A DNA stretch of 64,000 nucleotides, from NCBI RefSeq assembly GCF_009494395.1, contig NZ_VZCB01000060.1, positions 1 to 64,000 of the forward strand, read 5' to 3'. Position numbers and translations under genes: made by a program. The notes under the pieces were generated by a model. The model did not search any database and had not been told where the DNA came from. It was given only the letters and a program-made list of their open reading frames with translations. Every line of letters begins with the position of its first letter. Positions within the stretch are counted from its first letter, which is position 1. Origin of the DNA: Segatella copri. Lineage in GTDB: Bacteria; Bacteroidota; Bacteroidia; Bacteroidales; Bacteroidaceae. Shown piece after piece: positions 418 to 38,223 of this stretch.

Positions 418-589
418 TCTCACCCGATGCAGTAGAAATCTCACCCGATGCAGTAGAAATTGCGTCCCGACGTAGCATCGGATGCGTCCCGACGCAGTAA
501 AAGATGCATCCCGACGTAGTACAAGATACGTCGGGACGTAATTTCAGAAGCATCCTGGTGACCATCAGGTAAGCCTCATTCGGAAAAAG
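404..589. repeat. 22-bp-period palindrome array A with flanking 11-bp inverted repeat
   Basis: 14-bp cores start at 418, 439, 461, 483, 505, 527 and (degenerate) 549, so the steps are 21, 22, 22, 22, 22 and 22. Cores include TCTCACCCGATGCA (twice), TGCGTCCCGACGTA, TGCGTCCCGACGCA, TGCATCCCGACGTA and TACGTCGGGACGTA. Several are palindromes around a central CC or GG, separated by 8-bp A-rich spacers. The block is bracketed by a perfect 11-bp inverted repeat (404-414 and 579-589). The same core family returns at 37788-37889. The function is not recognised; it is not a CRISPR because the spacers are only 8 bp. Confidence 0.85.
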
Positions 590-621
590 TATTTTATCAG
601 AATTTTCGCATCAGGTTCAGG

Positions 622-674
622 GTGTGGCAATAAGTGGCAATAAGGTGGCAATAAAAAATCCCTTATTGCCACAC
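622..674. repeat. GTGGCAATAA direct repeats closing into a hairpin
   Basis: Three near-tandem copies of GTGGCAATAA lie between 624 and 654. They are followed by CTTATTGCCACAC (662-674), an exact inverted copy of GTGTGGCAATAAG (622-634). The hairpin could be a terminator or the end of a mobile element. A weaker echo (gtgtggcagatgtggca) follows near 710-723. No gene is attached. Confidence 0.6.
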
Positions 675-779
675 GCTATTTGTTTATAATCAATGAGTTA
701 AGTGTGAGTGTGGCAGATGTGGCATTAATTTGATAAAAAATAATTTTTCGTTTATGTAAAACTTGGGTTAAAGATAATG

Positions 780-849
780 AATCTGTGTGAATCTGTGGAA
801 TCTGTGGGAGTTTTATATGTCCCACGGATTTCACAGATTTACACAGATT
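780..849. repeat. 30-bp-arm AATCTGTG inverted repeat
   Basis: Left arm 780-809 contains three iterations of the word AATCTGTG. Right arm 820-849 is its inverse with only three mismatches, and as RNA those positions can form G-U pairs, so a nearly perfect 30-bp stem with a 10-nt loop is possible. Words of this kind recur in intergenic DNA of Bacteroidota. A T-run follows the right arm on the + strand, so it may terminate rightward transcription. It is most likely a dispersed repeat of unknown role. Confidence 0.7.
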
Positions 850-1092
850 TTTTATGCCCTGGGTTAGCAGCTTCTGCCTTAACCTTTCCGCTGTAGTGTA
901 GTGTGAAGTACGTTTGCTTATTCCGTTGTCTGTGCATTTGAGGCGGCTTTAGGAGATAATTATTATTAAAAAACTAGAAAACATTTGGCTATCTCGTTTT
1001 TTATTGCGTAATTTGCGTTGCGTAAAAAGCGCAATAGCTGTAAGTATAACGAAAACAATAAGATAAAAGCAATAATATGGCAACATTGAACG
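850..1092. other. Non-coding stretch before the AAA-ATPase remnant
   Basis: Nothing recognisable is seen. An in-frame stop (TGA at 1087-1089) lies directly upstream of the remnant that begins at 1093. Confidence 0.4.
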
Positions 1093-1353
1093 ATGGCTTA
1101 TCAGAATTATTGTGCCTGGCTTACGGAGAACCAGCAGATGCTGTTGCTGGCTATAGCTAGTGAGAGCCTGGTATCTTCGCCATTGAGCCAGCAGTTTATC
1201 TGCACCCACCATCTTCCTGCCACGAGCAGCGTGAAGACGGCATTAAAGGCATTGGTGGATAAGCAGCTGGTAAGCAAGACCCCAAACGGTTATTTAGTAA
1301 GCGACCGCTTCTTTTCGAAGTGGCTGGTGAAAGGGGGAATCATAGCCAACTGA
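1093..1353 (+). pseudogene. C-terminal remnant of an AAA-family ATPase (winged-helix end)
   Basis: The 86-residue frame contains LLLAIASESLVSSPLSQQF, then VKTALKALVDKQLVSK, then YLVSDRFFSKWL. This pattern closes the winged-helix tail of the common Bacteroidota ATP-binding (AAA) proteins, in which 'AL.aLvdk.lv' is followed by 'Y.v.DrFf..WL'. No Walker A or B region is present, since an in-frame TGA at 1087-1089 lies just upstream. Full-length relatives are several hundred residues, so this is a leftover scrap. It is followed at once by repeat DNA. An independent short protein is possible but unlikely. Confidence 0.6.
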
Positions 1354-1385
1354 GGAAATGAAAATTACGTCATTGCACAAGTTCA

Positions 1386-1473
1386 TACGTTTCATTGAGT
1401 CGAAGGATACGGTTGCGCTGGGTGAAGGATACGACTTCACTGGGTGGAAGAGTCAATTTCGTTGGCGGAGCTT
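1386..1473. repeat. 22-bp-period tandem array B
   Basis: Units start at 1386, 1408, 1430 and 1452, exactly 22 bp apart. The first three begin TACG and share a ...TTGnGTnGAAGGA-like second half; the fourth is more diverged. Unlike arrays A, C and D there is no obvious palindrome within the unit. An open frame across this block (1358-1546) is explained by the repeat and is not called as a gene. Confidence 0.7.
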
Positions 1474-1490
1474 CTTTACGGCAAGATATA

Positions 1491-1515
1491 AATTCGGCGG
1501 TTCAACCGCCGAATT
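1491..1515. repeat. Perfect 25-bp inverted repeat
   Basis: AATTCGGCGGTT and AACCGCCGAATT flank a single C. This is a 12-bp-arm perfect palindrome with almost no loop, so it is more likely a protein site or element end than an RNA terminator. It lies between arrays B and C. Confidence 0.7.
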
Positions 1516-1590
1516 ACTGTCAAGCATATCACATGCCTCGCCTTGAGAATTAGCTATGGTGAGATGGATGATAACAATGCCGCAACTTAT

Positions 1591-1722
1591 ACGATGCAAG
1601 GAAGCAATTATAACGATGCAAGGAAGCCTTTCTTACGATTGCGTGACATTTGTCATGCGTTTATACGACTCTTGTCGTAGGGTCGGATGACAAATGTCGT
1701 ATAATCACATGACATATATCAA
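1591..1722. repeat. 22-bp-period palindrome array C
   Basis: Six 22-bp units start at 1591, 1613, 1635, 1657, 1679 and 1701. The first two share ACGATGCAAGGAAGC. The last four carry 14-bp cores at 1643, 1665, 1687 and 1709: GTGACATTTGTCAT, ACGACTCTTGTCGT, ATGACAAATGTCGT and ATGACATATATCAA. Most are palindromic, and the arm changes between the first and second are compensated on both sides. The sequence differs from array A, but the period and the 14+8 layout are the same. Confidence 0.8.
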
Positions 1723-1934
1723 AGTATAAATAAACCTAATATTTTACACCAAAAGATACAAGTTATCACATTATTATATATATATGCATCATCTTTCATA
1801 GAAGACAAAGAATGCGAATTCAACAAGCAAGTGCAAAAATTCATCCCATTGTCTGTTAAAGAATATAATCATAAAAATCTTGAAAACGTGCAGAAGGCTT
1901 AATACGATTTGCATAACGTAAAGGCATACAAAAA
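1723..1934. other. Non-coding stretch
   Basis: AT-rich, with a short TA run (tatatatatatg) near 1775. No gene, RNA or clear regulatory element is recognised. Confidence 0.4.
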
Positions 1935-1965
1935 AGGCGACTCCCGATATGTTCGAGAGCCGCCT
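1935..1965 (-). terminator. Rho-independent terminator of the Rpn-like remnant
   Basis: On the minus strand AGGCGGCTCTCGA and TCGGGAGTCGCCT form a GC-rich stem, followed by TTTTTT, 13 nt after the stop codon at 1978. The stem is almost the same as the terminator at 3034-3065. Confidence 0.8.
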
Positions 1966-1977
1966 GGTAATCTCTTC

Positions 1978-2400
1978 TTATTCCTTCATTTTCTGAATTT
2001 CCTCCAGTGGAAGCTCTGTGGCCGTTGCCACTTGCGCTTCAGAAAGACCCATTGACAAAAGGCGGTAAGCTGTGGCTATCTTTTCTTTCGCCATTCCTTT
2101 TTCCATTCCTTTTTTCATTCCTTTTGCCATACCTATTTCCATTCCTCTCTTCTCATCAAACTTTCTGGTGGCATATATATCACGCATATTCTTGATGTCC
2201 TCGTCATAAAGCTCAAGTTCCTCTCGGGAAAGCTTGCGGAGGTCGCCTATCTCTGCCAATTTGCGGAAGACTGGATACTTCTCGCTGAATGGCATCTGTT
2301 CAAACATGTTCATATTCTTCACTATATAAATCCAACAATCAAATATATCCATACACTCTGCCTCCGTGTGCTTGTCAAACAATGGCAGTTGGAGTAATTA
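1978..2400 (-). pseudogene. C-terminal remnant of Rpn-family (PD-(D/E)XK) recombination-promoting nuclease
   Basis: The frame opens after TAA (2400-2398) as LLQLPLFDKHTEAEC, which matches the 'ieLPkF.k...E' segment found midway in Rpn/PDDEXK_2 transposase-family proteins. It continues through WIYIVKNMNMFEQMP and FRKLAEIGDLRKLS to a repeat-rich EKGMAKEKIATAYRLLSMGL tail with the usual G-M-x-K-G iterations. The N-terminal nuclease domain is missing, so the protein is cut at its 5' end; any translation would need a TTG near 2382. Its terminator survives. Full-length members are about 280-320 residues. The loss fits a decayed island. Confidence 0.75.
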
Positions 2401-2447
2401 CCATACTATGTTTTTATATGCATTTTGCCAACAATAATACATTATAG

Positions 2448-2723
2448 TCAAAACAAATCGCTATGGGTTCCATTGTTAAGAAACAGCAAGGTTAGTTTTT
2501 CATTGTTTTGTTCCCACAGCATCAACCAATCTGGGGTTATGTGACACTCCCAGATACCTTCTAGGTTTCCATGAAGTTTATGCGATTTATATGATGGTGG
2601 CAGTTTCCCCTCTTTGGCTAGTTTCTCTACGGCTTTTTCAATGAGGGTTGGATCTAGACCACGTTTCACTCCTTTTCGCAGAGACTTTTTAAATTTGTTT
2701 GTAAAGTCAATAGAGTATTTCAT
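2448..2723 (-). CDS. YafQ/RelE-superfamily mRNA interferase toxin
   Basis: This 91-residue protein has the YafQ layout: SHKLHGNLEGIWECHITPDW followed by LTLLFLNNGTHSDLF. The histidines at about 51, 61 and 87, Asp65, Trp66 and the terminal Phe91 match the residues that form the RNA-cutting site in E. coli YafQ. YafQ toxins cut mRNA on the ribosome. The start at 2723 is chosen because this ATG overlaps the antitoxin stop as ATGA, the usual coupling; an upstream ATG would add MLR. The gene is co-transcribed with the antitoxin from the promoter near 2970. All key residues are present, so it is probably active. Confidence 0.88.
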   Translation of the reverse strand: MKYSIDFTNKFKKSLRKGVKRGLDPTLIEKAVEKLAKEGKLPPSYKSHKLHGNLEGIWECHITPDWLMLWEQNNEKLTLLFLNNGTHSDLF

Positions 2724-2926
2724 TCTAAGCACTGTTTGATTAAGTCGTGAGCATCTTTTGCATGATATACTCTGCCAGCTTTAACATCTTCTAGGGCTTC
2801 TTCAATGCCACTTTTCTTTTCGGTTTGAATAACCCAGCCAAACTTCTTTGCCAGTTCCTTTAATAAGTTGAAGTCAACTTGCGGAACAGTTATTGTTGTT
2901 GTTATATTATTTATAGCTACATCCAT
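2720..2926 (-). CDS. Antitoxin of the YafQ-type module (RelB/DinJ-like role)
   Basis: A 68-residue protein directly upstream of the toxin, overlapping it by 4 nt. The first half (MDVAINNITTTITVPQVDFN) is strand-rich and probably the DNA-binding/dimer part. The acidic second half (KKSGIEEALEDVKAGRVYHA and KDAHDLIKQCLE) resembles the toxin-binding tails of small Bacteroidota antitoxins. Its role is to hold the toxin inactive and repress the shared promoter. Assignment as the antitoxin rests mainly on position, size and coupling. Confidence 0.8.
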   Translation of the reverse strand: MDVAINNITTTITVPQVDFNLLKELAKKFGWVIQTEKKSGIEEALEDVKAGRVYHAKDAHDLIKQCLE

Positions 2927-2962
2927 ATTGCTTTACTTTTAATGTTATTTTTAATGCTGCCG

Positions 2963-2970
2963 CAAAGATA
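2963..2970 (-). promoter_or_regulatory. -7 box of the toxin-antitoxin operon
   Basis: On the minus strand TATCTTTG matches the Bacteroidota -7 consensus TAnnTTTG and lies 36 nt before the antitoxin ATG. Confidence 0.6.
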
Positions 2971-3033
2971 CGACTTTTCCTCGTAACTTCCAAGTTTTTG
3001 GGGGAAAAATGTAGGGAGGGTGATAAAGAAAAA

Positions 3034-3065
3034 ATAGGCGGCTCCCGGATTCGAGAGTCGCCTAT
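3034..3065 (-). terminator. Terminator of the starch susCDEF operon
   Basis: On the minus strand ATAGGCGACTCTCG pairs with CGGGAGCCGCCTAT around a 4-nt loop and is followed by TTTTT, about 35 nt after the susF-like stop codon. The stem nearly repeats the one at 1935-1965. Confidence 0.88.
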
Positions 3066-3099
3066 GATTATGCAGTATTTATTATGATGAAACAAATGC

Positions 3100-4497
3100 T
3101 TACTTTACTGTGCAGTAGATGTTGTCAGATGTCTTTCTTGTAGGATACAACTTGATGGTGTTTCCAGCAACAGCAATGTTGTCACCACCTGCTGTCAAGT
3201 TATTGAGACTACCACCGAGGTTGATGTCCCAACCACCGTTTATGCGGAACTTCCAACCATCGGCAGTAACACCTACTTTTGTTGCTTCGAAGCAATACTC
3301 TTTAGCATTCCAAGTCATGACTGCGTCGCCACCCCAATTGTTGAAGCCACCGATGATTCCCATGGTTTCAACCTTAGTGGCTGTGATAGTGCCTTCTGAA
3401 AGATTAACATCCATGTAGTAAACACCTTCGCCTGCATTTACGCCGATGTTGCCATTGTCGACACCGATAGCAGCTCCACCAAAGCTTACAAATGTACCTG
3501 CACCAATAGCGGTGTCCCAGTTTCCTTGCGCGCGCTGGAACTTGAACTCAAAGCCAGCAGCGTTAGGATCGGCCAAATAAACATAACCAGTGTATACGCC
3601 CTTTGCATCGTCTACGAGAGCAAGCTTCTGATCATTGGATTTCCAACCATCAGTACTACCGATGAAGTAGATGAATGGATCGTAGTTAACCTCCTCTATG
3701 GTATAAGAGTAGTCCATCATGTTGATGGTGAGCTTATACTTACCAGCCTTAGCAATCTTACCTGCCTTAGCTTCACCGTTGGTCAGTGCACCAGTCATAC
3801 TGTCGTCGCCGTCAACCTTAGGTCCTACAACACCTGGAGCCCAGAGGTCATCTGCATCAATATTTTTCTTAGGAATAATCTTCCAATACTGGTCTGCCTT
3901 TGTTGTCTCGAAGCTTACGGTGAAGATAGGATCATCATATACATCCTTTTCGCTGTGATTGAATGCCTTTGCAACACCCTTAGTCCAGCCATTAACGTCA
4001 TCTGTAGTAAACATATCGCCTACGAGGTAGTAAGCTGCATCGATGAATGGAGCCTCAGGAATAGCCTTAACCTGGAATGTTTCAGATGTAACCATCTTCA
4101 CGGCTGTTGAGCCATTGCTTTGCCATGCGTCAAGAGTAGCATCGATGTCGCGCTCTTTAGGACGCTTGCCATACTTATTGGTGATGTAATTTACCAAGTC
4201 AGCTTTAGCCATGTTACCATCAGCATCAATGTCGAATGACTGACCGTCGAAGTTAATCTTATAATTAGGTGTATAAGCTGCGTCGGAAGAAGTAGGAGCA
4301 ACAATGCTCGCTACTTTTACCTTCTCTGTCTTAACGTTAGCCAAGTTGATGACATCAACTGGAGTTACGCTACCGTCGCCGAATGATACAGCTTCCTCCT
4401 GAGGATTTGACTGTGGGTTACCCCAATCTGTGTAGTCCTCGGTACAAGATACCATAGACATCAGCAGGGTCATTCCCAATAATATTTTCTTAATCAT
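3100..4497 (-). CDS. susF: SusF-like starch-binding outer-membrane lipoprotein
   Basis: A 465-residue lipoprotein: the signal peptide ends in the lipobox MSMVSC, so Cys19 would be acylated. After an N-terminal region come SusE/SusF-type segments, including AYYLVGDMFTTDDVNGWTKG, then FIYFIGSTDGWKSNDQKLAL, and a third GIIGGFNNWGGDAVMTW. These Trp-rich 'iGgfn.W' modules are the starch-binding domains of SusE/SusF, which hold starch at the cell surface. It is the last gene of the operon, 22 nt after the SusE-like gene and followed by a strong terminator. Sequence among SusF proteins is variable, so the label rests on module type and operon place. Confidence 0.82.
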   Translation of the reverse strand: MIKKILLGMTLLMSMVSCTEDYTDWGNPQSNPQEEAVSFGDGSVTPVDVINLANVKTEKVKVASIVAPTSSDAAYTPNYKINFDGQSFDIDADGNMAKADLVNYITNKYGKRPKERDIDATLDAWQSNGSTAVKMVTSETFQVKAIPEAPFIDAAYYLVGDMFTTDDVNGWTKGVAKAFNHSEKDVYDDPIFTVSFETTKADQYWKIIPKKNIDADDLWAPGVVGPKVDGDDSMTGALTNGEAKAGKIAKAGKYKLTINMMDYSYTIEEVNYDPFIYFIGSTDGWKSNDQKLALVDDAKGVYTGYVYLADPNAAGFEFKFQRAQGNWDTAIGAGTFVSFGGAAIGVDNGNIGVNAGEGVYYMDVNLSEGTITATKVETMGIIGGFNNWGGDAVMTWNAKEYCFEATKVGVTADGWKFRINGGWDINLGGSLNNLTAGGDNIAVAGNTIKLYPTRKTSDNIYCTVK

Positions 4498-4519
4498 AAT
4501 TGTCTATACTTTAAGTGAT

Positions 4520-5797
4520 TTACAATTTAACGATGCTGAATGCACCTGTGATGTCGTTGAATGAGATGACATACTTACCTTCTGCCAAACCGATGTTATG
4601 ACCATTAGCCTCGCACTTACCATACATGTTGATAGCGCCATCTGCTGCACCATATCCCCAGTTGGTATCCCAAGAACCAGCAATCTTGAACTTGAAGCTT
4701 ACTGTCTGTCCGGCAGGAACTTCCATCACATAGTACCAAGCGTGGTTTTCAACGCCCTCAGTGTTGTAAGGAAGCATTGGAGTGTCGCTCGCGAAATCGT
4801 CTAATGAGGTTGCAATCTGGATAGTACCATAGTTGGTTACATTACCCTCGTACTTCTCCATCTTGGCTGTATTGTCAGCAGTGTTGATTGTAATGGTGTA
4901 GTAACCGGCTTCAGAAGCAACGATATGACCACCGTCAGCACCGCCATTACGATTTTCTATTGTGCCTTTTTTAGCGCTGATTTCGTTATTGAGTATGGCG
5001 TTCATACTGTAATCCCAGTTGAAGTCTGAAGGCAGAATCTTGAAGCCAGCTCCGTCGCACTCGGCCTTGTCGTTGTAATCGCCAGTAAGGAAGTAGTTGG
5101 TGTATTCAATCTCACCAGCACCAGTCTTCTTGTCGTAAGAGAAGTTTGGCTTAAGGAACATAGGAAGTGCGTCTACTCCAATGTTCTTGTCGTTTGCCCA
5201 CTTAGCGCCGAACATGTTACCTACAAGATACCACATTGTTGGAACAGCATCCTTCAATTCAATGTAGTAAGGCTTTACGTTAAGCTTTACTGAGTTTGAA
5301 GCGATAGGGTTCAGGTGGTTTGTGCCCTCAAGGATGTAAGCGTTAACACGAACGTACATCTCCTGCTCGGCAGGAACATTACCTTCAGTCCATTTAAGTA
5401 TCTTTACCAATGCCTTGTCCATTTCTTCTGCAGAGGCAGAAATATTACATTTCTGTGTGGTGTTGCTAAGAACAGCGTAGTCTGGCACCTTTTCGCCACT
5501 CTCGTCTGCAGCAGCTTCATCAGTAGAAACTGTGAAGCTGTTGGTTGGAGATACCTGTACCTCGTAAGTTGCGTTGATTGGGGCATTGTCTGCTGTGTAC
5601 TTAGGCTGTGACCATGTAAGCTCAAGACCAGTAGATTTTTCCAAATCAATAGTCGTCGCATTGGCATATTCTGGAGTATTCAACGTGAACTCCTTAGGCT
5701 GGATAAGCGTAGGGTTTGAGTCGTTGTCATCCGAACATGAAGCGAATAAGCTGATGATGCCGATAAGCAGAGCACCAATTATATATTTATTCTTCAT
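4520..5797 (-). CDS. susE: SusE-like starch-binding outer-membrane lipoprotein
   Basis: A 425-residue lipoprotein with the signal LIGIISLFASC (Cys21). The N-terminal part carries the SusE Ig-like domain: QPKEFTLNTPEYANATTIDL, then LELTWSQPKYTADNAPINAT, then YEVQVS. Two starch-binding-type modules follow: MWYLVGNMFGAKWANDKNIG (about 190-210) and a C-terminal segment with WYYVMEVPAGQTVSFKFKIA and GSWDTNWGYG. It sits between the susD and susF genes with gaps of 31 and 22 nt. The expected role is binding maltooligosaccharides at the surface next to the SusCD complex. Confidence 0.85.
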   Translation of the reverse strand: MKNKYIIGALLIGIISLFASCSDDNDSNPTLIQPKEFTLNTPEYANATTIDLEKSTGLELTWSQPKYTADNAPINATYEVQVSPTNSFTVSTDEAAADESGEKVPDYAVLSNTTQKCNISASAEEMDKALVKILKWTEGNVPAEQEMYVRVNAYILEGTNHLNPIASNSVKLNVKPYYIELKDAVPTMWYLVGNMFGAKWANDKNIGVDALPMFLKPNFSYDKKTGAGEIEYTNYFLTGDYNDKAECDGAGFKILPSDFNWDYSMNAILNNEISAKKGTIENRNGGADGGHIVASEAGYYTITINTADNTAKMEKYEGNVTNYGTIQIATSLDDFASDTPMLPYNTEGVENHAWYYVMEVPAGQTVSFKFKIAGSWDTNWGYGAADGAINMYGKCEANGHNIGLAEGKYVISFNDITGAFSIVKL

Positions 5798-5828
5798 ATT
5801 GTGTTTTCTTTTATAATTCTTTTATACT

Positions 5829-7562: not shown

Positions 7563-7583
7563 ATCGAAATCTATTTTAAAATG

Positions 7584-10676: not shown

Positions 10677-10828
10677 TTTGTCTGATTTTTAAGTTTATGT
10701 TTATATTTATTGTTTATTCTTTATGAATATTCTGCTTGTTTTGTGATGAATATCACGTTTTTAGTCTCTGGCCTCGTTTTATATATAAAAATAGGTCGAA
10801 GAGTTGCGCTGTTTATTCTTTCTGGGTG

Positions 10829-10836
10829 CAAAATTA
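10829..10836 (-). promoter_or_regulatory. -7 box of the starch susC operon
   Basis: On the minus strand TAATTTTG fits TAnnTTTG. It lies 54 nt downstream of the palindrome at 10891-10904 and leaves a leader of roughly 150 nt before susC. Confidence 0.65.
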
Positions 10837-10890
10837 AGGTCTTTTTCAATACGATGTACTATTTTTTAGTTAATTCCGTTATTTCTTATG

Positions 10891-10904
10891 CGCAATCGTT
10901 TGCA
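10891..10904. promoter_or_regulatory. LacI-type operator upstream of susC
   Basis: CGCAATCGTTTGCA matches TGCAAACGTTTGCA at 12 of 14 positions. It lies in the divergent region between susC and the lacI-family gene, 54 nt before the susC -7 box, the same distance as at the GH77 and GH97 genes. It also lies about 55 nt before the regulator's own -7 box at 10960. Confidence 0.75.
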
Positions 10905-10959
10905 TTCCTTTTGCTTGATTTAAATCAATGAAAATGATGCAACTTAACGGATATTTGTC

Positions 10960-10967
10960 TAATTTTG
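10960..10967 (+). promoter_or_regulatory. -7 box of the LacI-family regulator gene
   Basis: TAATTTTG lies 20 nt before the chosen ATG and gives a very short leader. AGGAAAG at about 10975-10981 may serve as a ribosome-binding site. Confidence 0.6.
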
Positions 10968-10986
10968 CAGCGTGAGGAAAGATATC

Positions 10987-12012: not shown

Positions 12013-12031
12013 AAATTCAAAGTATAACAAT

Positions 12032-20682: not shown

Positions 20683-22608
20683 ATGAAAAAGATAATAGCT
20701 TCATTATTGCTTATGGGTAGCGCAATAAGTATGAACGCAGCGGTCAACGTAAGCCGCATAGAACCAACTGACTGGTATGTGGGCATGAAGGATGCTTCGC
20801 TCCAGCTGATGGTGTATGGCAAGGATATCAAGAATGCCGATGTTACGGTAGATTATCCTGGTGTGAAGGTGGATAGCATCGCCCGCCTCGATTCTCCTAA
20901 CTATCTCCTTGTTTATCTCAATCTCGATGGCGCCAAGGCAGGAGAGATGACCCTCAATTTCAAGCAGGGCAAGCAGTCGAAGAAGGTGAAGTATGTGTTG
21001 AAGAACCGCGAGATGGCGGGAGACAAGCGCATCGGCTTCTCTAACAAGGATGTGCTCTACATGCTGATGCCTGACCGTTTTGCCAATGGAAATCTGAAGA
21101 ACGATGCATTCAAGAACATGCGTGACAAGACCTGCGACCGCACGGCACCTAGTCTTCGTCATGGTGGTGACCTGGAGGGAATCCGCCAGCACCTGGATTA
21201 TTTCAGCCAGTTGGGCGTAACTGCCCTGTGGTTTACTCCGGTTTTGGAGAACGACAGTCCTAATGATGGCAAGAACAGTACCTATCATGGTTATGCCACC
21301 ACCAACTACTATCGTGTGGATCCACGCTTCGGAACCAATGCAGAGTATAAGCAACTCATTGATGAGGCTCACAAGAAGGGTCTGAAGATTGTGATGGATA
21401 TGATTTTCAACCACTGCGGTTTCGATCATCCTTGGGTAGCCGATATGCCATCGAAGGATTGGTTCAATACTCCGGAGTGGCTTGCTCCTGAAAACCAGAC
21501 TCCAGAGCATCAGAAGAATATCGGAACCATGGATGGTGCTGCCAAGGTAAATGACAAGTATCTCCAGACCAATTATAAGCTGACTCCAGTACTCGACCCA
21601 TACGCCAGCAAGGTTGATCTCACAGAAACCGTGGATGGATGGTTTGTTCCATCTATGCCGGATTTGAACCAGCGCAATCCGCACGTCATCAAGTATCTGA
21701 TTCAGAACAGTGAGTGGTGGATAGAGACCGTTGGCATCGATGGCATCCGCATGGATACCTATCCATACGCCGACCGTGATGCGATGGCACACTGGATGAA
21801 AGTGCTGGGCGAGGAATATCCTCACTTCAATACCGTAGGCGAGACTTGGGTAACCGAGCCTGCCTATACCGCCGCATGGCAGAAAGACAGCAAGCTCTCA
21901 GAAAAGAACAGCTATCTGCCTACCGTTATGGATTTCGCCTTCTTCGACCGCATCAATAGTGCGAAGAACGAGGAGACCGATGACTGGTGGAATGGTATGA
22001 ACCGTATCTACAATGTGTTCTGCTACGACTATCTCTATCCTAATCCAAAGAGCGTGATGGCATTCGTCGAGAATCACGATACCGACCGCTTCCTGGGTGA
22101 AGGCAAGGATACTCTGGCATTGAAGCAGGCCTTGGCACTTCTCTTGACCGTAAACCGCACCCCGCAGCTCTATTACGGAACTGAGGTGTTGATGAATGGT
22201 ACCAAGAGCGTAACCGATGGCAATGTGCGCAAGGATTTCCCAGGCGGTTGGGCAGGTGACAAGCATAATGCCTTTACTGCCGAAGGAAGAACCCAGGCTG
22301 AAAACCAGATGTTCGACTGGCTCAGCCGATTATTGCATTGGCGTCAGGGCAACGAGGTTGTCACCAAGGGCAAGCAGACCCAGTTCTGTCCACAGAAGGG
22401 TGTGTATGTCATTGCCCGCCAGTATAAGGGAAAGAGCGTGATGACCATCATCAATGGCAAGAAGGAAGCCAACGAACTGAATGTTTCCCGCTATGCTGAG
22501 ATTATCGGTTCTCATGACAAGGCTACGGATGTTACAAACGGTCGCACCGTTCTGATCAACAAGAACGTGAAGCTCCGTCCTCGCCAGACTATGATACTTG
22601 AGTTCTAA
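20683..22608 (+). CDS. susA: Neopullulanase / cyclomaltodextrinase-type GH13 (SusA-like)
   Basis: A 641-residue protein with signal MKKIIASLLLMGSAISMNAA, so periplasmic. The N-terminal cyclomaltodextrinase Ig-like domain is seen in VSRIEPTDWYVGMKDASLQL. The GH13 barrel carries LMPDRFANG, DMIFNHCGFDHPW, DGIRMDTYPYAD (nucleophile near Asp358), VGETWV (acid/base near Glu387) and ENHDTDR (Asp near 466). SusA-type enzymes hydrolyse alpha-1,4 bonds of maltooligosaccharides, pullulan and cyclodextrins. It lies in an operon with the pullulanase and is followed by array D and a strong terminator. Confidence 0.92.
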   Translation: MKKIIASLLLMGSAISMNAAVNVSRIEPTDWYVGMKDASLQLMVYGKDIKNADVTVDYPGVKVDSIARLDSPNYLLVYLNLDGAKAGEMTLNFKQGKQSKKVKYVLKNREMAGDKRIGFSNKDVLYMLMPDRFANGNLKNDAFKNMRDKTCDRTAPSLRHGGDLEGIRQHLDYFSQLGVTALWFTPVLENDSPNDGKNSTYHGYATTNYYRVDPRFGTNAEYKQLIDEAHKKGLKIVMDMIFNHCGFDHPWVADMPSKDWFNTPEWLAPENQTPEHQKNIGTMDGAAKVNDKYLQTNYKLTPVLDPYASKVDLTETVDGWFVPSMPDLNQRNPHVIKYLIQNSEWWIETVGIDGIRMDTYPYADRDAMAHWMKVLGEEYPHFNTVGETWVTEPAYTAAWQKDSKLSEKNSYLPTVMDFAFFDRINSAKNEETDDWWNGMNRIYNVFCYDYLYPNPKSVMAFVENHDTDRFLGEGKDTLALKQALALLLTVNRTPQLYYGTEVLMNGTKSVTDGNVRKDFPGGWAGDKHNAFTAEGRTQAENQMFDWLSRLLHWRQGNEVVTKGKQTQFCPQKGVYVIARQYKGKSVMTIINGKKEANELNVSRYAEIIGSHDKATDVTNGRTVLINKNVKLRPRQTMILEF

Positions 22609-22610
22609 AA

Positions 22611-22668
22611 CGCAAGTAGGTGCGATGGCAGACGCAAGTAGTTGCGATTGCCAACGCAAGTATATTCC
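22611..22668. repeat. 22-bp-period palindrome array D
   Basis: 14-bp cores at 22611, 22633 and 22655 are exactly 22 bp apart: CGCAAGTAGGTGCG, CGCAAGTAGTTGCG and a degenerate CGCAAGTATATTCC. The second is a palindrome with 5-bp arms. The array begins two bases after the neopullulanase stop codon and ends just before the terminator, so it would be in the 3' untranslated region. Confidence 0.8.
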
Positions 22669-22997: not shown

Positions 22998-22999
22998 GT

Positions 23000-26397: not shown

Positions 26398-26417
26398 CCT
26401 ATAATTACTGATTAATT

Positions 26418-26425: not shown

Positions 26426-26570
26426 GCCACCGAAAATTTGTGATGCGTATGGCTTTGCCCTGCGCTACTTACTTCCATCCGCAACCCCTAAAATGAGTAA
26501 ACGGACGAAAGCAACTGCAAACTATAGAAATTAGAATAAACAAAAATACAAACCTAAAAATTGATAAGCA

Positions 26571-29777: not shown

Positions 29778-29826
29778 TAATGAGAATAGACAAGTATAAG
29801 AATCATTATTTAAAAGAACATTTGAT

Positions 29827-31584: not shown

Positions 31585-31593
31585 CAATATTCA

Positions 31594-31631
31594 TTATCTC
31601 AAGGGGCAGGATTACCTGCCTCATGAGATAA
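31594..31631 (+). promoter_or_regulatory. Intra-operon hairpin between SusD and the binding lipoprotein
   Basis: TTATCTCA and GGGGCAGG pair with CCTGCCTC and TGAGATAA around ATTA. No T-run follows, so it may protect the susCD part of the message or lower downstream expression rather than fully terminate. Confidence 0.55.
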
Positions 31632-31669
31632 AACTAAACAATTCACATATTTATAATATAGAATATAAT

Positions 31670-33649
31670 ATGAAACACCTAAATAAATTAGCATCTGTCT
31701 TCTGCGTAGCTGCAATGGCATTGACAGCGATGACTGGATGCGAGGGAAGTGACATGTTCAGTGTTAACTCTCCTGATTGGATTTCAGAAAAGATAGACTC
31801 CATCAATGCCGCTAAGGGCAATGACAATGCATTGCCAGAAGGTGAAGAGGATGTTTACACAGTCGGTGCTACTGACTATTCTACAGGTTGGTGGACAGCC
31901 TTCTCCAAGTACTATGTCATTCCTGATGGCAAGACCTGGAATGCCGTGTTCAATCTGAACATCAACCCATCGGCTCCTAATACCTACAAGAACTTCGCCC
32001 TCGTCCTTGCTAGTGATGATGATCGTGGTGGCGCTAACTATAAGGAGTATGGAGCTATCCGTTTCGATAATCAGCCTAGCGGTAACTCTGAGTGGGGTGA
32101 TTATATTGATAGAAGTGGTGTAGTAAGTGATCTTACTTTTGAAAAAGATACCGACGAAGGCGTACAGAAGCTCGGTGGTACAGTGGTTCTTACTGTTGAC
32201 CGTTCTGACCCTAATGCCTTCAGCGTCAAGATTACCAACGGAACTGTAACCAAGACATACAAGCAGGCTACCCCTCTCCCAAATCTCAATCCTGATGCAA
32301 GCGATACCAATATCCGTGCATTCCTTGTACCGGAAGGTTCTTACATCAACTTCCTCCAGTCTAACCTCGAACCTATCGGTGGTTTCACTTCTGCAGAGGA
32401 TAAGCAGCCTCTTTCTATGGAGTTGCACTCTGTTCCTAAGAAGGTAATGGTAGGTACATCTCTTGAGGATGCAATGGCTAACGTTTCTGCTACCATTACA
32501 TTCGAGACTGGCATTACCAAGGAGGTTCCTGCTGCTGAACTCGGATTCGTGGCTGTTCCTAACATGGATCAGGTTGGTGTGAAGACACTCGTTGCTATCT
32601 ACAACAAGACATTCAAGAACGAGAACTGCAGTTCTCCTATCACAGGTCAGGCTCAGTTCAGCGTTGTTGACAAGATGTTCAACAGCCTGGGTGCTACCGA
32701 CAACTCAACTCCATTCTTCGGTGTTCTGTCAGATCCAGTAAAGGTAGCTCCTCATGAGACTCAGGTGATGCAGTTTACCAACTATACCAATGGTGGTAAT
32801 AACTGGGAAAACTTCCTCGTTGTAATGGTAAACGGTGCTGGAACAGAATACGGTGTTACCCGTGCCGACTGCTTCGGTTGGGGTGCTGCTTATGACGGCA
32901 AGGCAACTCCATTCGGTGCTCCTGATAACTGGGCTACATGGCTCGCTGACATGGATGGCGCCAAGGTTACCCTCTATACAACCAACAATGGTGATGGCAC
33001 TGTTGATATCAAGTACGATATCCTGGCAGCCAATGGACATAAGTATCACATGGGCTACACTGGAATCTCTGGCGTAGATCCTAACGACTTCTTCGTCAAG
33101 CTCTCTCTTGAGAAGGCTCACCTCGAGTTTGATACCGTCATTGGTAATGAGGACAATACTTCTGCTTTCTTCGGAGCTCTCTCTAATGTGTTTGATGTTC
33201 CTGCAGGCAAGACCGTTTCTACTCAGTTCGTCAACTACACAGCTGGTGGTTCTAACTGGTTCAACTTCGTAGCAGTTCTTGTCAACAAGGCAAACGATAA
33301 GGAGTATGCTGCCGTTCGTGCCGACAACTACGGTTGGGGTGCAGGATATGATGCATGTACTCATGCCTGCTCATGGGAAGACTGGGGTGCTTGGCTTACA
33401 GCCATGGATGGTGCCAAGGTTCAGCTCTCTGTAACCAATGTAGGTAATGGTACAGCCAACATCAAGGCAACCATGATAGGCAACAATGGTGTAACCTACA
33501 CCCAGACCTATAATGGCATCAACAACATCGATGCCAATGACCTGGCGTTCAAGCTCACTATAGAGAAGGCTCATCTCGTATTCGACCTTCCTTTCGCAAA
33601 TTCATCATTTGCTGCCCGCAAGCATTACTCACGTGCACATCGCAGATAA
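31670..33649 (+). CDS. Surface glycan-binding lipoprotein with three copies of an unnamed beta-sandwich domain
   Basis: A 659-residue lipoprotein (lipobox LTAMTGC, Cys24). Three related domains are visible at about 66-237, 340-488 and 491-639, with a shorter Ig-like linker at about 240-333. Domains 2 and 3 align closely: FFG.LS, QF.NYT.GG.NW.NF, EY...RAD..GWGA.YD, W..WL..MDGAKV, NGDGT/VGNGT, and EKAHL.FD. Domain 1 is more diverged (KNFALVLAS, KEYGAIRFDNQ). The repeated exposed Trp residues suit sugar binding. It sits directly after SusCD, where surface glycan-binding proteins usually lie. The same domain occurs in the GH43 protein downstream. The tail (FAARKHYSRAHRR) is oddly basic. Confidence 0.82.
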   Translation: MKHLNKLASVFCVAAMALTAMTGCEGSDMFSVNSPDWISEKIDSINAAKGNDNALPEGEEDVYTVGATDYSTGWWTAFSKYYVIPDGKTWNAVFNLNINPSAPNTYKNFALVLASDDDRGGANYKEYGAIRFDNQPSGNSEWGDYIDRSGVVSDLTFEKDTDEGVQKLGGTVVLTVDRSDPNAFSVKITNGTVTKTYKQATPLPNLNPDASDTNIRAFLVPEGSYINFLQSNLEPIGGFTSAEDKQPLSMELHSVPKKVMVGTSLEDAMANVSATITFETGITKEVPAAELGFVAVPNMDQVGVKTLVAIYNKTFKNENCSSPITGQAQFSVVDKMFNSLGATDNSTPFFGVLSDPVKVAPHETQVMQFTNYTNGGNNWENFLVVMVNGAGTEYGVTRADCFGWGAAYDGKATPFGAPDNWATWLADMDGAKVTLYTTNNGDGTVDIKYDILAANGHKYHMGYTGISGVDPNDFFVKLSLEKAHLEFDTVIGNEDNTSAFFGALSNVFDVPAGKTVSTQFVNYTAGGSNWFNFVAVLVNKANDKEYAAVRADNYGWGAGYDACTHACSWEDWGAWLTAMDGAKVQLSVTNVGNGTANIKATMIGNNGVTYTQTYNGINNIDANDLAFKLTIEKAHLVFDLPFANSSFAARKHYSRAHRR

Positions 33650-33672
33650 GAGATTTTTGAAATAGTATGAGA

Positions 33673-33717
33673 AGGCATGACCTATGCGGAAACACATTCC
33701 CATAGGTCTGCCTTTTT
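33673..33717 (+). terminator. Terminator after the binding lipoprotein
   Basis: AGGCATGACCTATG pairs with CATAGGTC-TGCCT around a 14-nt loop and is followed by TTTTT. It separates susCD plus the lipoprotein from the GH43 genes, which may have a weaker promoter or depend on readthrough. Confidence 0.8.
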
Positions 33718-33777
33718 GCATCATATCAGAAGTCTTGGTTTTCTTTTTACAAATCAATAATTAAACTCAATCAAGTT

Positions 33778-36429
33778 ATGAAGAAATTATTACTCTCTAT
33801 GTTGGGGCTTGCTGCCATCGGTGCTACTGCCCAGACACAGGTCTGCGACAACGACCTGACGAATGCTTATACGTCGAGATCATATAGTAAGCGTGTGGTT
33901 TGCCACGACCCGTCTATCGTGGTAGATGACATCACCAACCCTAGCTCGCCTACCTATTATATATATGGTTCTCATCTGGGTAGGGGCAAGACCACTGCGG
34001 CAAGCAACTACCAGGAATGGACTTCGTTCAAGGCGGGCGAGGAAGCTGCCGGCAATGTGAACAGTCTCTTTGCCAACAAGCAGGGCACATTGGTTAATTA
34101 TTCCATTGCCTATCAGTCGCATGTTGTCACCGAAGTGAAGAACAGCAAGGGCGAGAACGTGAAGTTCGGCAACTTCAATGCCCACGGCTGGCAGTATAAA
34201 GGCTATAATGTGCAGGGCAATCAGTGGGCACCAGACATCGTATATAACAAAACCATGAAGAAATGGTGTATGTATATGAGTCTGAATGGCGAAAACTGGT
34301 GTTCTTCCATCGTATGCTTTGTTTCTGATAACATCGAAGGACCTTGGGTTTATCAGGGACCAGTAGTTTTCTCCGGTTTCCAGGGCTCATACGCTCATAA
34401 CTCATACGCTGCTGCGGATGACTGGAAGCATACCGACTATGCCATCGCCACTGGCGAAACCGCTCTTCCTACTCGTTATAAGAATGGTAAGAGTTGGGGA
34501 ACCTATTGGCCAAACTGTATCGACCCATGCGTCTTCTATGATGACAACGACAACCTCTGGATGAGCTACGGCTCCTGGTCGGGTGGTATCTTTATGATTA
34601 AGTTGGATAAGACCAATGGTCTCCGCGACTATACCTACACCTTCCCTTACGAGGTGAATGGCAAGGTCACCACTCCGGGTGCTGCCAGTGCCAACTGCAC
34701 CAGCGACCCTTACTTCGGCAAGAAGATAGCGGGTGGATATTATGTATCGGGAGAGGCTAGCTATATTCAGAAGATAGGCAAGTACTACTTCCTCTTCATG
34801 AGCTATGGTGGCTTGAAAAGCGATGGCGGTTACCAGATGCGCATCTTCCGTTCTGAGAATCCTGACGGACCTTACGTAGACTGCTATGGTACATCGGCAC
34901 TCTTCAAGAGTTATAAGATGAACTATAGTGCTACCACAGCCGACAACCGTGGCGTATTGCTCTTTGGCGGTTACCAGTGGGATGCAATGAGCGGTGCTGA
35001 AATAGCACAGGGTCACAACTCTGCGTTCGTAGACAAGCAGAACCGTTCTTTCGTGGTTTACCACACCCGTTTCAGCAATGGTGGCGAGGGTCATCAGGTT
35101 CGTGTTCATCAGCTCTTCCTCAATGACGAGGGGTGGTTGATGGCAGCTCCATTTGAGTTTGACGGCGAGACCATCACCGATGCAGCTATCGCTTCCAAGG
35201 CATCTATCGCAGATGCTGACATTGCAGGCGACTATCAGTTCATGCGTCATCAGTATGGTCAGAACACCAAGGCAAAGGCTTTCGAGACTCCTGTGAACAT
35301 CACTCTCAATGCCGATGGAACCATCACTGGTGCCGAGAAGGGAACCTGGAAGCGTACGGCTGGTACTGATTACATCCACCTGACTATCAATGATGTAGTA
35401 TATCGTGGCGTACTGGTTAATCAGACCATCGACTATACCAATATCCCAGCCATCGCCATCTCTGCTCTCTCTTCATCAAGCGGTAGCCTGACTATGGGAC
35501 AGAACAACTTCACCTATCAGCAGGAGGTTTGGGCTGTGAAGGCAGATGCCAAGGCTGCCATCAAATATACAGTCAATAATCTGACTCTGCCATTCGCAGA
35601 CGGTGCCACCCTGAATGCGGCTCCTTCTCTGCCTACTCAGGGCAAGATGGGTGCTAATATCTCCTGGAAGTCAAGCGATACTTCTATCCTGACCGATGAC
35701 GGCAAGGTGAACGGTAAAGGCAAGGTTACTATGACCATGACAATCAGCAAGGATGAGTATGAGTATGTGAAGGATTATTCCCTGAATATCGATGCTGATG
35801 CTGAGGAAACTACTCCGGTTTATTATCCTGTTTCTGCACAGAAGAATCTTACGAATGCCTATGCTACCAACCTGAGTCAGGATTATACTGTGAAGGCTGG
35901 CAATAAGGCTCAGTTCAAGTTCTATAACTATACTGTGGGTACAGATAATTTCAAGAGTTGGGTATTGGGTGTTTCCAACGTAGCTCATGGTGCAGCTGGA
36001 TATAAGGAGTATGTGATGTTGCGTAATGATAACTGGGAGAACATTTCCTGGGGCAACATCGGATGTACCAGCGATTTCAACTGGGATACATTTGTGCAGG
36101 ATATGAACGGTTCTCTGGTTGATATGACCGTGGAATATGCAGCTACTGGTACTTTCAAGATGACAGCTGTGATTACTACCAAGGACAAGAAGGTATATCA
36201 TTATTCATATTCTACGACCATCAGCGGCAAGCCAGCCAAGATCAATGTCTTCTTTACTGGTGAGAATTCCTATATCGACGGCTCTAGCCTCGTTGATACC
36301 GGTATCGCTCCTATCGTCATCCAGAAGAAGCAGAATGACGGCAAGTGGTATAATCTCGCTGGTCAGCTGGTGGACAAGAGCTACAAGGGTGTAGTGATTG
36401 TAAATGGAAGAAAGTTTGTGAACAAGTAA
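33778..36429 (+). CDS. Multidomain GH43 arabinanase with C-terminal carbohydrate-binding-like domain
   Basis: An 883-residue exported protein (signal ending IGATAQ). The GH43 five-blade domain covers about 25-470, with carboxylates in VCHDPSIV (Asp44), NCIDPCVFYDD and VSGEASYIQ. A GH43_C-type beta domain follows at about 505-570 (GTWKRTAG, INDVVYRGVLV), as in endo-alpha-1,5-arabinanases. Next come an Ig-like segment (about 598-678, ISWKSSDTSILTDDGKV) and a domain at about 682-833 homologous to the three domains of the upstream binding lipoprotein (QFKFYNYTVG, KEYVMLRNDNW, VQDMNGS). The end (WYNLAGQ..., GVVIVNGRK) is a C-terminal module common in secreted Prevotella proteins. Expected to cut arabinan backbones; exact bond not certain. 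Confidence 0.85.
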   Translation: MKKLLLSMLGLAAIGATAQTQVCDNDLTNAYTSRSYSKRVVCHDPSIVVDDITNPSSPTYYIYGSHLGRGKTTAASNYQEWTSFKAGEEAAGNVNSLFANKQGTLVNYSIAYQSHVVTEVKNSKGENVKFGNFNAHGWQYKGYNVQGNQWAPDIVYNKTMKKWCMYMSLNGENWCSSIVCFVSDNIEGPWVYQGPVVFSGFQGSYAHNSYAAADDWKHTDYAIATGETALPTRYKNGKSWGTYWPNCIDPCVFYDDNDNLWMSYGSWSGGIFMIKLDKTNGLRDYTYTFPYEVNGKVTTPGAASANCTSDPYFGKKIAGGYYVSGEASYIQKIGKYYFLFMSYGGLKSDGGYQMRIFRSENPDGPYVDCYGTSALFKSYKMNYSATTADNRGVLLFGGYQWDAMSGAEIAQGHNSAFVDKQNRSFVVYHTRFSNGGEGHQVRVHQLFLNDEGWLMAAPFEFDGETITDAAIASKASIADADIAGDYQFMRHQYGQNTKAKAFETPVNITLNADGTITGAEKGTWKRTAGTDYIHLTINDVVYRGVLVNQTIDYTNIPAIAISALSSSSGSLTMGQNNFTYQQEVWAVKADAKAAIKYTVNNLTLPFADGATLNAAPSLPTQGKMGANISWKSSDTSILTDDGKVNGKGKVTMTMTISKDEYEYVKDYSLNIDADAEETTPVYYPVSAQKNLTNAYATNLSQDYTVKAGNKAQFKFYNYTVGTDNFKSWVLGVSNVAHGAAGYKEYVMLRNDNWENISWGNIGCTSDFNWDTFVQDMNGSLVDMTVEYAATGTFKMTAVITTKDKKVYHYSYSTTISGKPAKINVFFTGENSYIDGSSLVDTGIAPIVIQKKQNDGKWYNLAGQLVDKSYKGVVIVNGRKFVNK

Positions 36430-36467
36430 TTCTCTTATATATTATAATAAGGTATAATACAAAGAAG

Positions 36468-37520
36468 ATGAATTTATCTAAAATACTATTGGGAGCAGCA
36501 ATGATGATTGCTGCTCCTGCTGTAAAAGGCGGTTGCCAGATGATGGCACAGAATGCTCCTCAGGAGCCTGTCGTGGTAGATACTCCGATGGTTCACGACC
36601 CCGTGATGGCTTATGAGAACGGCAAGTACTATCTCTACTGCACGGGGCATGGCATTGCGCAGATGACTTCTACCGACCGCAAGCATTGGACCTTGAATCC
36701 GCAGGGTGTGTTGAAAGACGAGGCGCGTGGTGCTTTCCCAGCCTGGACCCATGATAGTGTGCCGGGTTATGAGAGTCATACCTGGGCACCTGATGTCATC
36801 AAGTATAAGAACAAGTGGTATATGGCTTATTCCTGTTCTACCTTCGGCAAGAACACCTCTGCCATCGGATTGCTCAGCAATGTTTCTTTAGCCGATACCG
36901 ATGGTTGGAAAGACGAGGGTTGTCTCATTGTCTCAAAGGGTGGAAAAGTGAATTGGAATGCCATCGATCCTAATTTCGTGATAGATGAGAAGGGCAAGCC
37001 TTGGCTTACCTGGGGGTCTTTTTGGGATGGCATCCAGCTCATTCCGCTGGACAAGAAGACGATGCATGTGAAGAAGGGCGCCAAGCCTCAGACCATTGCC
37101 CGCCGTTATGCACTCAATCAGATTGATGTGCCTACCAATCCTACTTCCAAGGATGCCGGCACCAATGCCATCGAGGCTCCATTCATCATGAAGCATGGTG
37201 GTTATTACTATCTCTTCGTCAGTTGGGATTACTGCTGCCAGGGGATGAAGAGTACCTATCGTGTTGCCGTAGGCAGAAGCAAGAAGGTTTCCGGTCCTTA
37301 TTTGGACAAGACGGGTAAGGATATGCGAGAGGGTGGTGGCACCCTGCTGCTGGAAGGTGACAAGAAGGAATATGAGGCGATGGGCCATTGCTCTGCCTAC
37401 TCCTTCCCTGATGGTGATTTCTTCTTCTGCCATGGTTACAGCATCGCCAAGAATGGCGCCAGCATCCTGGTCCAGAAGCGAATCAACTGGACGGAAGATG
37501 GGTGGCTGACGCTAGAATAA
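36468..37520 (+). CDS. GH43 arabinan endo-1,5-alpha-L-arabinosidase
   Basis: A 350-residue single-domain GH43 enzyme with an N-terminal signal-like segment (ILLGAAMMIAAPAVKG). Catalytic motifs: MVHDPVMAYENGKYYLY (Asp44), WNAIDPNFVIDEKGKPWLTW and NAIEAPFIMKHGGYYYLFVS. SHTWAPDVIKYKNKWYMAYS and WDYCCQGMKSTYRVAVGRS are characteristic of the endo-arabinanase group of GH43. It lies 38 nt after the large GH43 gene, presumably in one transcript. It would shorten arabinan chains to oligosaccharides in the periplasm or at the surface. A Cys at position 23 could in principle be acylated, but the preceding residues are not a good lipobox. Confidence 0.88.
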   Translation: MNLSKILLGAAMMIAAPAVKGGCQMMAQNAPQEPVVVDTPMVHDPVMAYENGKYYLYCTGHGIAQMTSTDRKHWTLNPQGVLKDEARGAFPAWTHDSVPGYESHTWAPDVIKYKNKWYMAYSCSTFGKNTSAIGLLSNVSLADTDGWKDEGCLIVSKGGKVNWNAIDPNFVIDEKGKPWLTWGSFWDGIQLIPLDKKTMHVKKGAKPQTIARRYALNQIDVPTNPTSKDAGTNAIEAPFIMKHGGYYYLFVSWDYCCQGMKSTYRVAVGRSKKVSGPYLDKTGKDMREGGGTLLLEGDKKEYEAMGHCSAYSFPDGDFFFCHGYSIAKNGASILVQKRINWTEDGWLTLE

Positions 37521-37550
37521 GATATATTAGCTTAGTGTTAAAATAGAGTT

Positions 37551-37615
37551 AAAATAGCGTTTATTCCGCTACGAACGGTAAAAAGTCGGTTTTGTAGCGA
37601 AATAAACGCTATTTT
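37551..37615. repeat. 22-bp-arm inverted repeat after the GH43 genes
   Basis: Arms 37551-37572 and 37594-37615 (AAAATAGCGTTTATT... and its inverse) match at 21 of 22 positions around a 21-nt loop, and the right arm ends in TTTT followed by CTTTC. It could act as a bidirectional terminator or be a small mobile repeat. Confidence 0.7.
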
Positions 37616-37787
37616 CTTTCGCTATTTCCGAAATTTGTCGTATATTTGCTGCATCTAATTGAGTATGATTATGTGGGAAATTCTGAGCTGGTGAGTAATG
37701 AGTACTCCGATATATTCAGGGCTTCAGTAACTCTGGATGATTTGTTTATATGATGAATTTATCAGGTTCTAAAACTATACTTTTGTT
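37616..37787. other. Non-coding stretch
   Basis: TATATTTG near 37632 looks like a -7 box, but no gene follows it before the repeat arrays. Nothing else is recognised. Confidence 0.3.
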
Positions 37788-37889
37788 TTTCTCCCGACGC
37801 CCTTGAAGTTACATGGCGATGTAGAAAACTCTGCATCGGGACGTAGGAAAGATTACGTCGCCATGTAATAAAGTCTACGTCGGGGCGTA
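37788..37889. repeat. 22-bp-period palindrome array E (same family as array A)
   Basis: 14-bp cores at 37788 (degenerate), 37810, 37832, 37854 and 37876 are exactly 22 bp apart. They read TACATGGCGATGTA, TGCATCGGGACGTA, TACGTCGCCATGTA and TACGTCGGGGCGTA. The first shows paired changes on both arms relative to TACGTCGGGACGTA. Like array A, the array ends in TACGTCGGG(A/G)CGTAATTT on the same strand, and starts after a T-rich stretch with a CTCCCGACG-type unit. Confidence 0.85.
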
Positions 37890-38000
37890 ATTTTTGGGGA
37901 ATCTATAAGGTTTCATATCAGATACTTTTTAGATTTTCCGTCGAGTTTATACGCATACAAAAAAAGTTTTTTCGTGAAAAAAGTCTCAAAGTATCATCGA

Positions 38001-38066
38001 AGTATCATGAAATTGGCATAGTAGTATCACCAAATCAGCATAAAAGCATCACGAAATCCTCATAAC
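38001..38066. repeat. 22-bp-period tandem array F
   Basis: Three contiguous 22-bp units start at 38001, 38023 and 38045 (AGTATCATGAAATTGGCATA, AGTATCACCAAATCAGCATA and AGCATCACGAAATCCTCATA, each plus two bases). A partial fourth (GCATCATGCATAA) follows. The consensus is AGyATCAysAAATyn-CATAA. Palindromicity is weak here. Confidence 0.8.
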
Positions 38067-38118
38067 GCATCATGCATAATAGCGAAGCCGCCGACACGCA
38101 AAAAATGCCCAAAAAACG

Positions 38119-38223
38119 TCCGGCACTTTGGGCGCTCGATGCCCGCAGTACGGGCAATGAGTGCCCGTAACTTGGTCTGTCGATGCCCGTAACTTGGTCC
38201 CTGAGTGCCCACTTGGCGGGCAC
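38119..38223. repeat. 22-bp-period array G (GC-rich)
   Basis: TGCCC(G) recurs at 38141, 38163, 38185 and 38207, exactly 22 bp apart, with a degenerate unit at 38119. The outer units are palindromes (TGCCCGCAGTACGGGCA and TGCCCACTTGGCGGGCA). The two inner ones share TGCCCGTAACTTGGTC. The GC content stands out from the AT-rich surroundings. Confidence 0.8.

Follow-up and report, generated by a model that had tools for sequence, protein, structure and literature searches.

A 22-bp period shared by intergenic repeat arrays of Segatella copri and a site upstream of VapE-like genes

The first 64,000 nucleotides of Segatella copri contig NZ_VZCB01000060.1 (RefSeq assembly GCF_009494395.1; hereafter the window) carry seven intergenic tandem arrays, blocks A to G, that step by 22 bp. 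We found that this period recurs across the genus and that arrays with the same period occupy a conserved site upstream of VapE-like genes. Quite possibly, the 22-bp arrays are iteron- or operator-like docking strips for a putative dimeric DNA-binding protein. The arrays consist of short, mostly palindromic units stepping by 22 bp, which is two helix turns; a dimeric protein would sit once per unit, each dimer on the same side of the helix, and the letters would follow the protein with spacing and symmetry unchanged. The geometry fits the side-by-side dimers suggested in a preliminary description of the window, and the binding is predicted from sequence. The blocks, and the composite to which the last three belong, are as follows (L, G and C numbers are our handles for loci, genomes and contigs).

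Block A, positions 415-562: two 21-bp units (415-460), then four TRCRTCSSGAYGYA units (461-474, 483-496, 505-518 and 527-540).
Bracket of block A, positions 401-414 and 579-592: a 14-nt inverted repeat.
Block B, positions 1381-1471: a lag-22 array without a palindrome.
Block C, positions 1528-1813: an array (lag-22 segment 1568-1738) within a dispersed module.
Block D, positions 22608-22668: three CGCAAGTA units flanked by the stop codon of the cyclomaltodextrinase gene and a terminator-like hairpin.
Block E, positions 37810-37889: four units of the TRCRTCSSGAYGYA family, at 37810, 37832, 37854 and 37876.
Block F, positions 37970-38072: a AAGTATCAT array; approximately 37960-38038 resembles the inverted repeats flanking DUF6078/VapE elements.
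Block G, positions 38119-38269: a TGCCCGTAAC array, matching an array downstream of DUF6078 in L171 and also arrays in L037 and L040.
Composite E-F-G, positions 37790-38501: counterparts in the same order at G045 C1:2391944-2392683, in three pieces.

When the window was scanned for self-similarity at different lags, using 44-base windows and requiring at least 28 matches, lag 22 gave seven segments and recovered all seven blocks blind, which bears out the original claim of seven arrays. Lag 21 gave one segment (at the head of block A), lags 20 and 23 gave none, lag 44 gave three, and each of the remaining lags from 10 to 43 gave zero or one. Tandem Repeats Finder (TRF) reported a period of 21 or 22 at all of the seven blocks but E. 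In 41 stretches of the same genome (855,383 bases, window included), 34 intergenic segments were found at lag 22, compared with 2, 12 and 3 at lags 20, 21 and 23. The excess at lags 14 and 21 in the genome belongs largely to a separate heptamer repeat, ACTTTGA / TCAAAGT, whose arrays at L043:8171-8267, L046:16302-16407 and L020:14552-14628 produce signal at these two lags, in this genome as in its relatives. In 92 stretches from 21 same-genus genomes (1.87 Mb), lag 22 gave 97 intergenic segments, compared with 3, 18, 10 and 14 at lags 20, 21, 23 and 24; several of these stretches (e.g. L057-L060) had been picked around hits to the TRCRTCSSGAYGYA (TRCRTC) family, which raises the array density there. 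Lag 22 is commoner than its neighbours in genome and genus, and the signal is weaker outside the genus: in 17 stretches from 14 other genera of the family (340 kb, coding sequence included), lags 22, 21 and 23 gave 10, 7 and 2 segments, and in 20 stretches from other families (318 kb) they gave 2, 1 and 2. Taken together, these results show that the 22-bp period is a property of the genus and not seven accidents. Palindromic arrays with a period of 23 (GGTACTGTGAGTACC; TAGTTGTACGACTATA) or 21 were also seen in other genera and in this genome (L198:18117-18329, L184:3887-3989, L185:16215-16375, L200:3015-3119 and L190:3150-3239).

The window gave a lead to one gene family, as block F resembles the inverted repeats, and block G the internal array, of approximately 3-kb elements encoding DUF6078 and a VapE-like protein. 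Such inverted repeats were found in 5 of the 11 element loci examined, and one of the five surrounds an AAA-ATPase gene instead. We collected 54 VapE-like loci by protein similarity alone, from Segatella copri, Prevotella species and assemblies mostly of rumen origin, and scanned the 450 bp before the start at lags 12-40 in the 50 loci with a usable start. Lag 22 was the top lag in 43 of the 50 loci and its score was at least 27 in 43 of the 50; any other lag reached 27 in at most one locus. As negative controls, the same score was reached in 60 of 1107 generic upstream regions of equal length, in none of 50 regions inside VapE, in 3 of 49 downstream regions, and in 3 of 48 regions at -1150 to -700, where the values for L216 and L218 are unreliable. 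In an earlier set of ten VapE regions, seven scored at least 33 of 44 and eight at least 29; among the five chosen without an array being known, three scored at least 33. The arrays end a median of 52 bp before VapE starts. In 41 of 53 loci, DUF6078 homology was detected upstream of VapE in the same orientation, mostly 100-260 bp away from it. One locus without an upstream array, L227, scored 29 at lag 22 on the downstream side of VapE. VapE matches helicase/primase-like profiles and one solved chain named 'Similar to D. nodosus vapE'. Cysteines at positions 23, 28, 34 and 63 of DUF6078 are invariant in 35 sequences, and a literature search for this family found nothing.

The letters of the VapE-site arrays change with the gene. 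Among 43 arrays there are 17 half-site consensuses (GAAAA in 15, TGTAA in 8, others in 1-3 each), and half-site similarity tracks VapE identity (Mantel rho 0.35, 42 loci, 0 of 1000 permutations). Arm pairing was 0.83, compared with 0.60 after column permutation, with p<0.05 in 30 of 43 arrays. The palindromes are odd-centred in 41 of 43 arrays and the central bases pair less; because the arms lie 3-7 bp from the centre, half-sites are separated by about one helical turn and units by two. Different loci thus keep a palindrome but spell it in different letters, and units inside one array share a consensus. This pattern would be expected of predicted binding sites for one protein per array and not of RNA structure.

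Dispersed arrays show a similar symmetry. In 79 arrays from ten genomes, best-stem pairing was 0.70, compared with 0.59 after column permutation (p<0.05 in 32 of 79), and the palindromes differ by species: CAATTTCGCCCAATTTG in G061, CTTGTAANNNNNTTACAAG in G028, GATGACCCGGGTCATC in G042 and TGGCAGCGGCCGCTGCCA in G059. Thus the palindrome persists with different letters from array to array. In the window, where palindromes had been described for A, C, D, E and G, column permutation supported those of D (p 0.010), G (0.015) and E (0.025) and left C (0.055) and A (0.060) as borderline. The accompanying claim that unit sequences differ between blocks fails for A and E, which have a common TRCRTCSSGAYGYA core. 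Blocks E, F and G, in turn, belong to a single dispersed composite, a large part of which also occurs as a whole in G045.

The TRCRTC family of A and E shows how strict the spacing is. The TRCRTCSSGAYGYA core was found at 34 genome sites, compared with one for the reversed pattern, and elsewhere at 32 sites in G045, 6 in G042 and 0-3 in each of the other 146 genomes searched. Steps of 20-24 bp were allowed when units were chained in 29 arrays of three genomes, and all 83 steps obtained were 22 bp; these chains leave out a one-base insertion inside an L055 unit, which splits that chain. Four units are present in 18 of the 29 arrays, and the identity of neighbouring units is 0.79 in the core compared with 0.40 in the spacer (51 neighbour pairs). 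Among 39 distinct units, a purine is found at core position 2 in 38 and at position 4 in 39, and a pyrimidine at positions 11 and 13 in 39 each, the members of paired positions varying independently. The core centres flip between CC and GG. A half-unit in inverted orientation lies 22 bp outward from the array ends, where G at -14, A at -13 and G at -11 were present in 62-64% of 58 ends; a palindrome register beyond the array ends was at background level only. In G045, this unit family forms an array (L060) that precedes a VapE gene. The window is tied to VapE elements twice, with A and E through the unit family of the L060 array and F and G through the DUF6078/VapE inverted repeats and array.

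In order to follow how the arrays change, homologous arrays were aligned in 13 pairs; 12 were used for rates, leaving out the badly aligned L045-L137 pair (32% array substitutions). Substitutions were equally frequent in arrays (166/1566) and flanks (225/2068). Small out-of-register indels numbered 1 in arrays and 19 in flanks (Fisher p 6e-4), and 0 and 7 in a less redundant subset (p 0.015); these p-values are rough, since aligned pairs share some sequences. With L045-L137 added, small indels amounted to 5 for 218 substitutions in the arrays and to 24 for 253 in the flanks. Two comparisons show differences of whole units: the G045 site orthologous to block D is 44 bp shorter, and the long array of L031 exceeds that of L059 by 44 and 22 bp. 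These results support the earlier claim that spacing is kept while sequence changes; an out-of-phase deletion that removed three units from the shorter L031 array counts against it and against a pure unit register.

Since VapE has helicase/primase-like profiles, an origin (iteron-like) or an operator is a natural candidate function at the VapE site, and the array there may be the replication origin or the autoregulatory operator of a mobile element; the ligand could be DUF6078 or VapE, each a candidate only. The dispersed arrays, those of the window included, are likely relics or non-autonomous copies. Self-regulated genes have operator arrays of this general kind, in which palindromic dimer sites lie just upstream of the gene and letters change with the regulator; the arrays here differ in having three to seven regularly spaced units, and their regulator is putative. 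Iteron origins of plasmids and phage-inducible chromosomal islands (PICIs), as described in excerpts of PMC6092414, likewise have tandem repeats beside a helicase/primase-type replication gene, with repeats that differ between elements. If the docking explanation is right, the arrays would work like an initiator-site array by analogy; tandem repeats were found beside the gene in 43 of 50 VapE-like loci, VapE being an initiator by profile. Placement of the PICI type was rejected: in those excerpts the PICI origin is placed 3' of the initiator gene and has two sets of iterons flanking an AT-rich region, whereas the arrays here lie 5' of VapE and only 3 of 49 downstream regions scored.

Several results weigh against docking. 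Blocks B and F are not palindromic (p 0.82 and 0.88), lag 22 is not the highest-scoring lag in 7 of the 50 VapE loci, and the 54 loci are related by descent, several coming from one genome. The arms show no covariation within VapE-site arrays (571 pairs compared with 570.1 ± 4.0 at distances 3-7, and 715 compared with 704.2 ± 6.2 at 2-8, in a test run without a filter on observed pairing, which inflates the excess) or within dispersed arrays (1217 pairs compared with 1202.0 ± 10.7 shuffled). Because of this lack of covariation, selection on symmetry inside an array is not supported. The one clear exception among the 79 arrays tested is L070 (p 0.001), where neighbouring units at L070:6180-6345 (G044) have different palindromes in one register (AAAAC/GTTTT, AATCCTG/CAGGATT and GTTTT/AAAAC). 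Fourteen units with less than 0.6 arm identity to any array mate paired at approximately 0.33, compared with a background of approximately 0.27, which indicates lost symmetry, one unit of L070 again being a clear exception; these units and the arms give no support to the preliminary claim that units diverge within an array while palindromes persist. The predicted structure of DUF6078 is confident and its fold matches are weak, some being to helix-turn-helix proteins. Finally, because VapE or DUF6078 was found within 1.5 kb of only 3 of the 105 lag-22 segments in the stretches sampled, we infer the link of VapE to most arrays, as we do the step from the conserved VapE site to the dispersed arrays (A-D included), which could be relics or non-autonomous copies, or could be sites maintained for a different reason.

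The arrays could instead be passive minisatellites, a doubtful explanation that needs no protein. In-register slippage would multiply units, copying of whole units would inherit the period, and template switching would make or repair palindromes and invert centres. Slippage and template switching (excerpts of PMC8604942 and PMC8794818) can account for the birth and symmetry of units, and template switching can produce flips such as those of the CC/GG centres. The exact 22- or 44-bp differences in unit number, the gradual drift of units along the arrays of L031, L058 and L059, substitutions as fast as in the flanks and the missing within-array covariation all agree with such a process, but it leaves unexplained why one period spans unrelated sequences, why an array persists at one site in 43 of 50 VapE loci and why small indels are scarce.

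We consider it rather unlikely that the arrays are non-autonomous transposable elements resembling miniature inverted-repeat transposable elements (MITEs), with the internal 22-bp repeats as binding sites of an absent or unrecognised transposase. Dispersed copies with common boundaries (E in L032, L052 and L035), the inverted half-units at both ends of TRCRTC arrays and the inverted repeats in 5 of 11 element loci argue for it, as does the BrickBuilt MITE as an analogue. However, no clean empty site or target duplication was found, no transposase could be tied to the arrays, and their persistence upstream of VapE would be unusual. Neighbours are mostly ordinary genes: PDDEXK_2 occurs in 5 of 112 and is not among the 25 families listed for 111 control neighbours, and an alpha-amylase excess is partly due to stretches chosen around that gene. 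Gene orientation around the arrays showed no clear bias (tandem 43, convergent 17 and divergent 12, compared with 42.4, 11.1 and 18.4 expected; p 0.07). Repetitive extragenic palindromic (REP) sequences and bacterial interspersed mosaic elements (BIMEs), which are associated with REP-associated tyrosine transposases (RAYTs), are also dispersed intergenic palindromes and occur in mosaic blocks, but they differ from the strict tandem 22-bp period here. A REP/RAYT system was rejected, as a search of the genome for the Y1 transposase (PF01797) gave one match, below the Pfam cut-off.

BrickBuilt, a minisatellite-MITE of Porphyromonas gingivalis, is the nearest described repeat; the following comparison is with excerpts of PMC4596501. 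Both are found in Bacteroidales and consist of imperfect tandem units of approximately two turns in dispersed intergenic copies, and BrickBuilt has predicted stem-loops and, on some copies, terminal inverted repeats (TIRs). The BrickBuilt unit is 23 nt and the unit here 22 bp; BrickBuilt is one repeat family of one species and a close relative, whereas the letters here vary across a genus; and no conserved site beside one gene family is reported for BrickBuilt in the sections consulted. Its authors also mention 22-nt repeats in P. gingivalis W83. The IS5-like BrickBuilt TIR, GAGACCTTTGCA, had 5 window matches with at most 2 mismatches, compared with 5.89 expected, and none at the arrays. A leader or tail common to all families, as in BrickBuilt, was not found here; block E copies have common ends and TRCRTC arrays half-unit ends. 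A literature search found no description of 22-bp arrays in Prevotella or Segatella in titles or abstract openings. The preliminary statement that no named element is like this therefore stands for the 22-bp class within the literature searched, and is weakened by the 23-bp BrickBuilt as a known near analogue.

RNA hairpin strings in transcripts, for instance in a VapE leader, are very unlikely and this earlier suggestion was dropped: the arrays end a median of 52 bp before VapE and their central bases pair less, as in loops, but mismatches show no G.U preference on the VapE-sense strand (G.T 16 compared with A.C 22 at distances 3-7, and 53 compared with 71 at 2-8, near independence) or in dispersed arrays (60 compared with 67; within-array concordance p 0.36), no covariation or compensatory change within arrays was seen, and Rfam at the gathering threshold returned only tRNA in the window.

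Returning to the arrays as docking strips, a wider and somewhat doubtful proposal is that they form a genus-wide class of cis-elements defined by geometry alone. The docking grid would be conserved with every letter replaceable, and each DUF6078-VapE lineage would write its own letters as origin or operator and shed copies into intergenic DNA. Similarity searches would not group such arrays, since ruler and symmetry are common to them and letters are not, so that unrelated-looking repeats of the genus may form one functional class. Should the arrays before VapE prove to be origins or operators, they would offer a testable handle on a little-studied family of probably replicative elements in bacteria that are dominant in gut and rumen, and a natural series in which joint change of a DNA-binding protein and its sites could be followed.

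The blocks recur individually as well. The block C module matches L047 13779-14064 at 87%, where it lies upstream of an HU-HIG gene, and is also found in G045 (L124 19635-19779). Copies of block E were found in L032, L052, L035, L139 and L143. Two G000 contigs, C16 (end 83081) and C20 (end 80091), have copies of the E-F-G composite at their ends, and these repeats may therefore break short-read assemblies.

Further repeats and genes surround blocks A to C. At positions 619-744, a module of GTGGCAATAAG repeats carries an inverted TTATTGCCAC copy; parts of it recur beside TRCRTC arrays in L031, L048, L057 and L059, and also in L040 and L046. Positions 778-850 contain GAATCTGTG three times plus an inverted copy and are related to L021 10473-10524. 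Three further copies of positions 1-423, at approximately 85-88%, are found in L043, L034 and L017; judged by eye, the minus strand there contains the putative start of an integrase-like gene. Two other features lie on the minus strand, a fragment of a PD-(D/E)XK family transposase at positions 1978-2382 and a YafQ-like toxin gene at positions 2448-2732.

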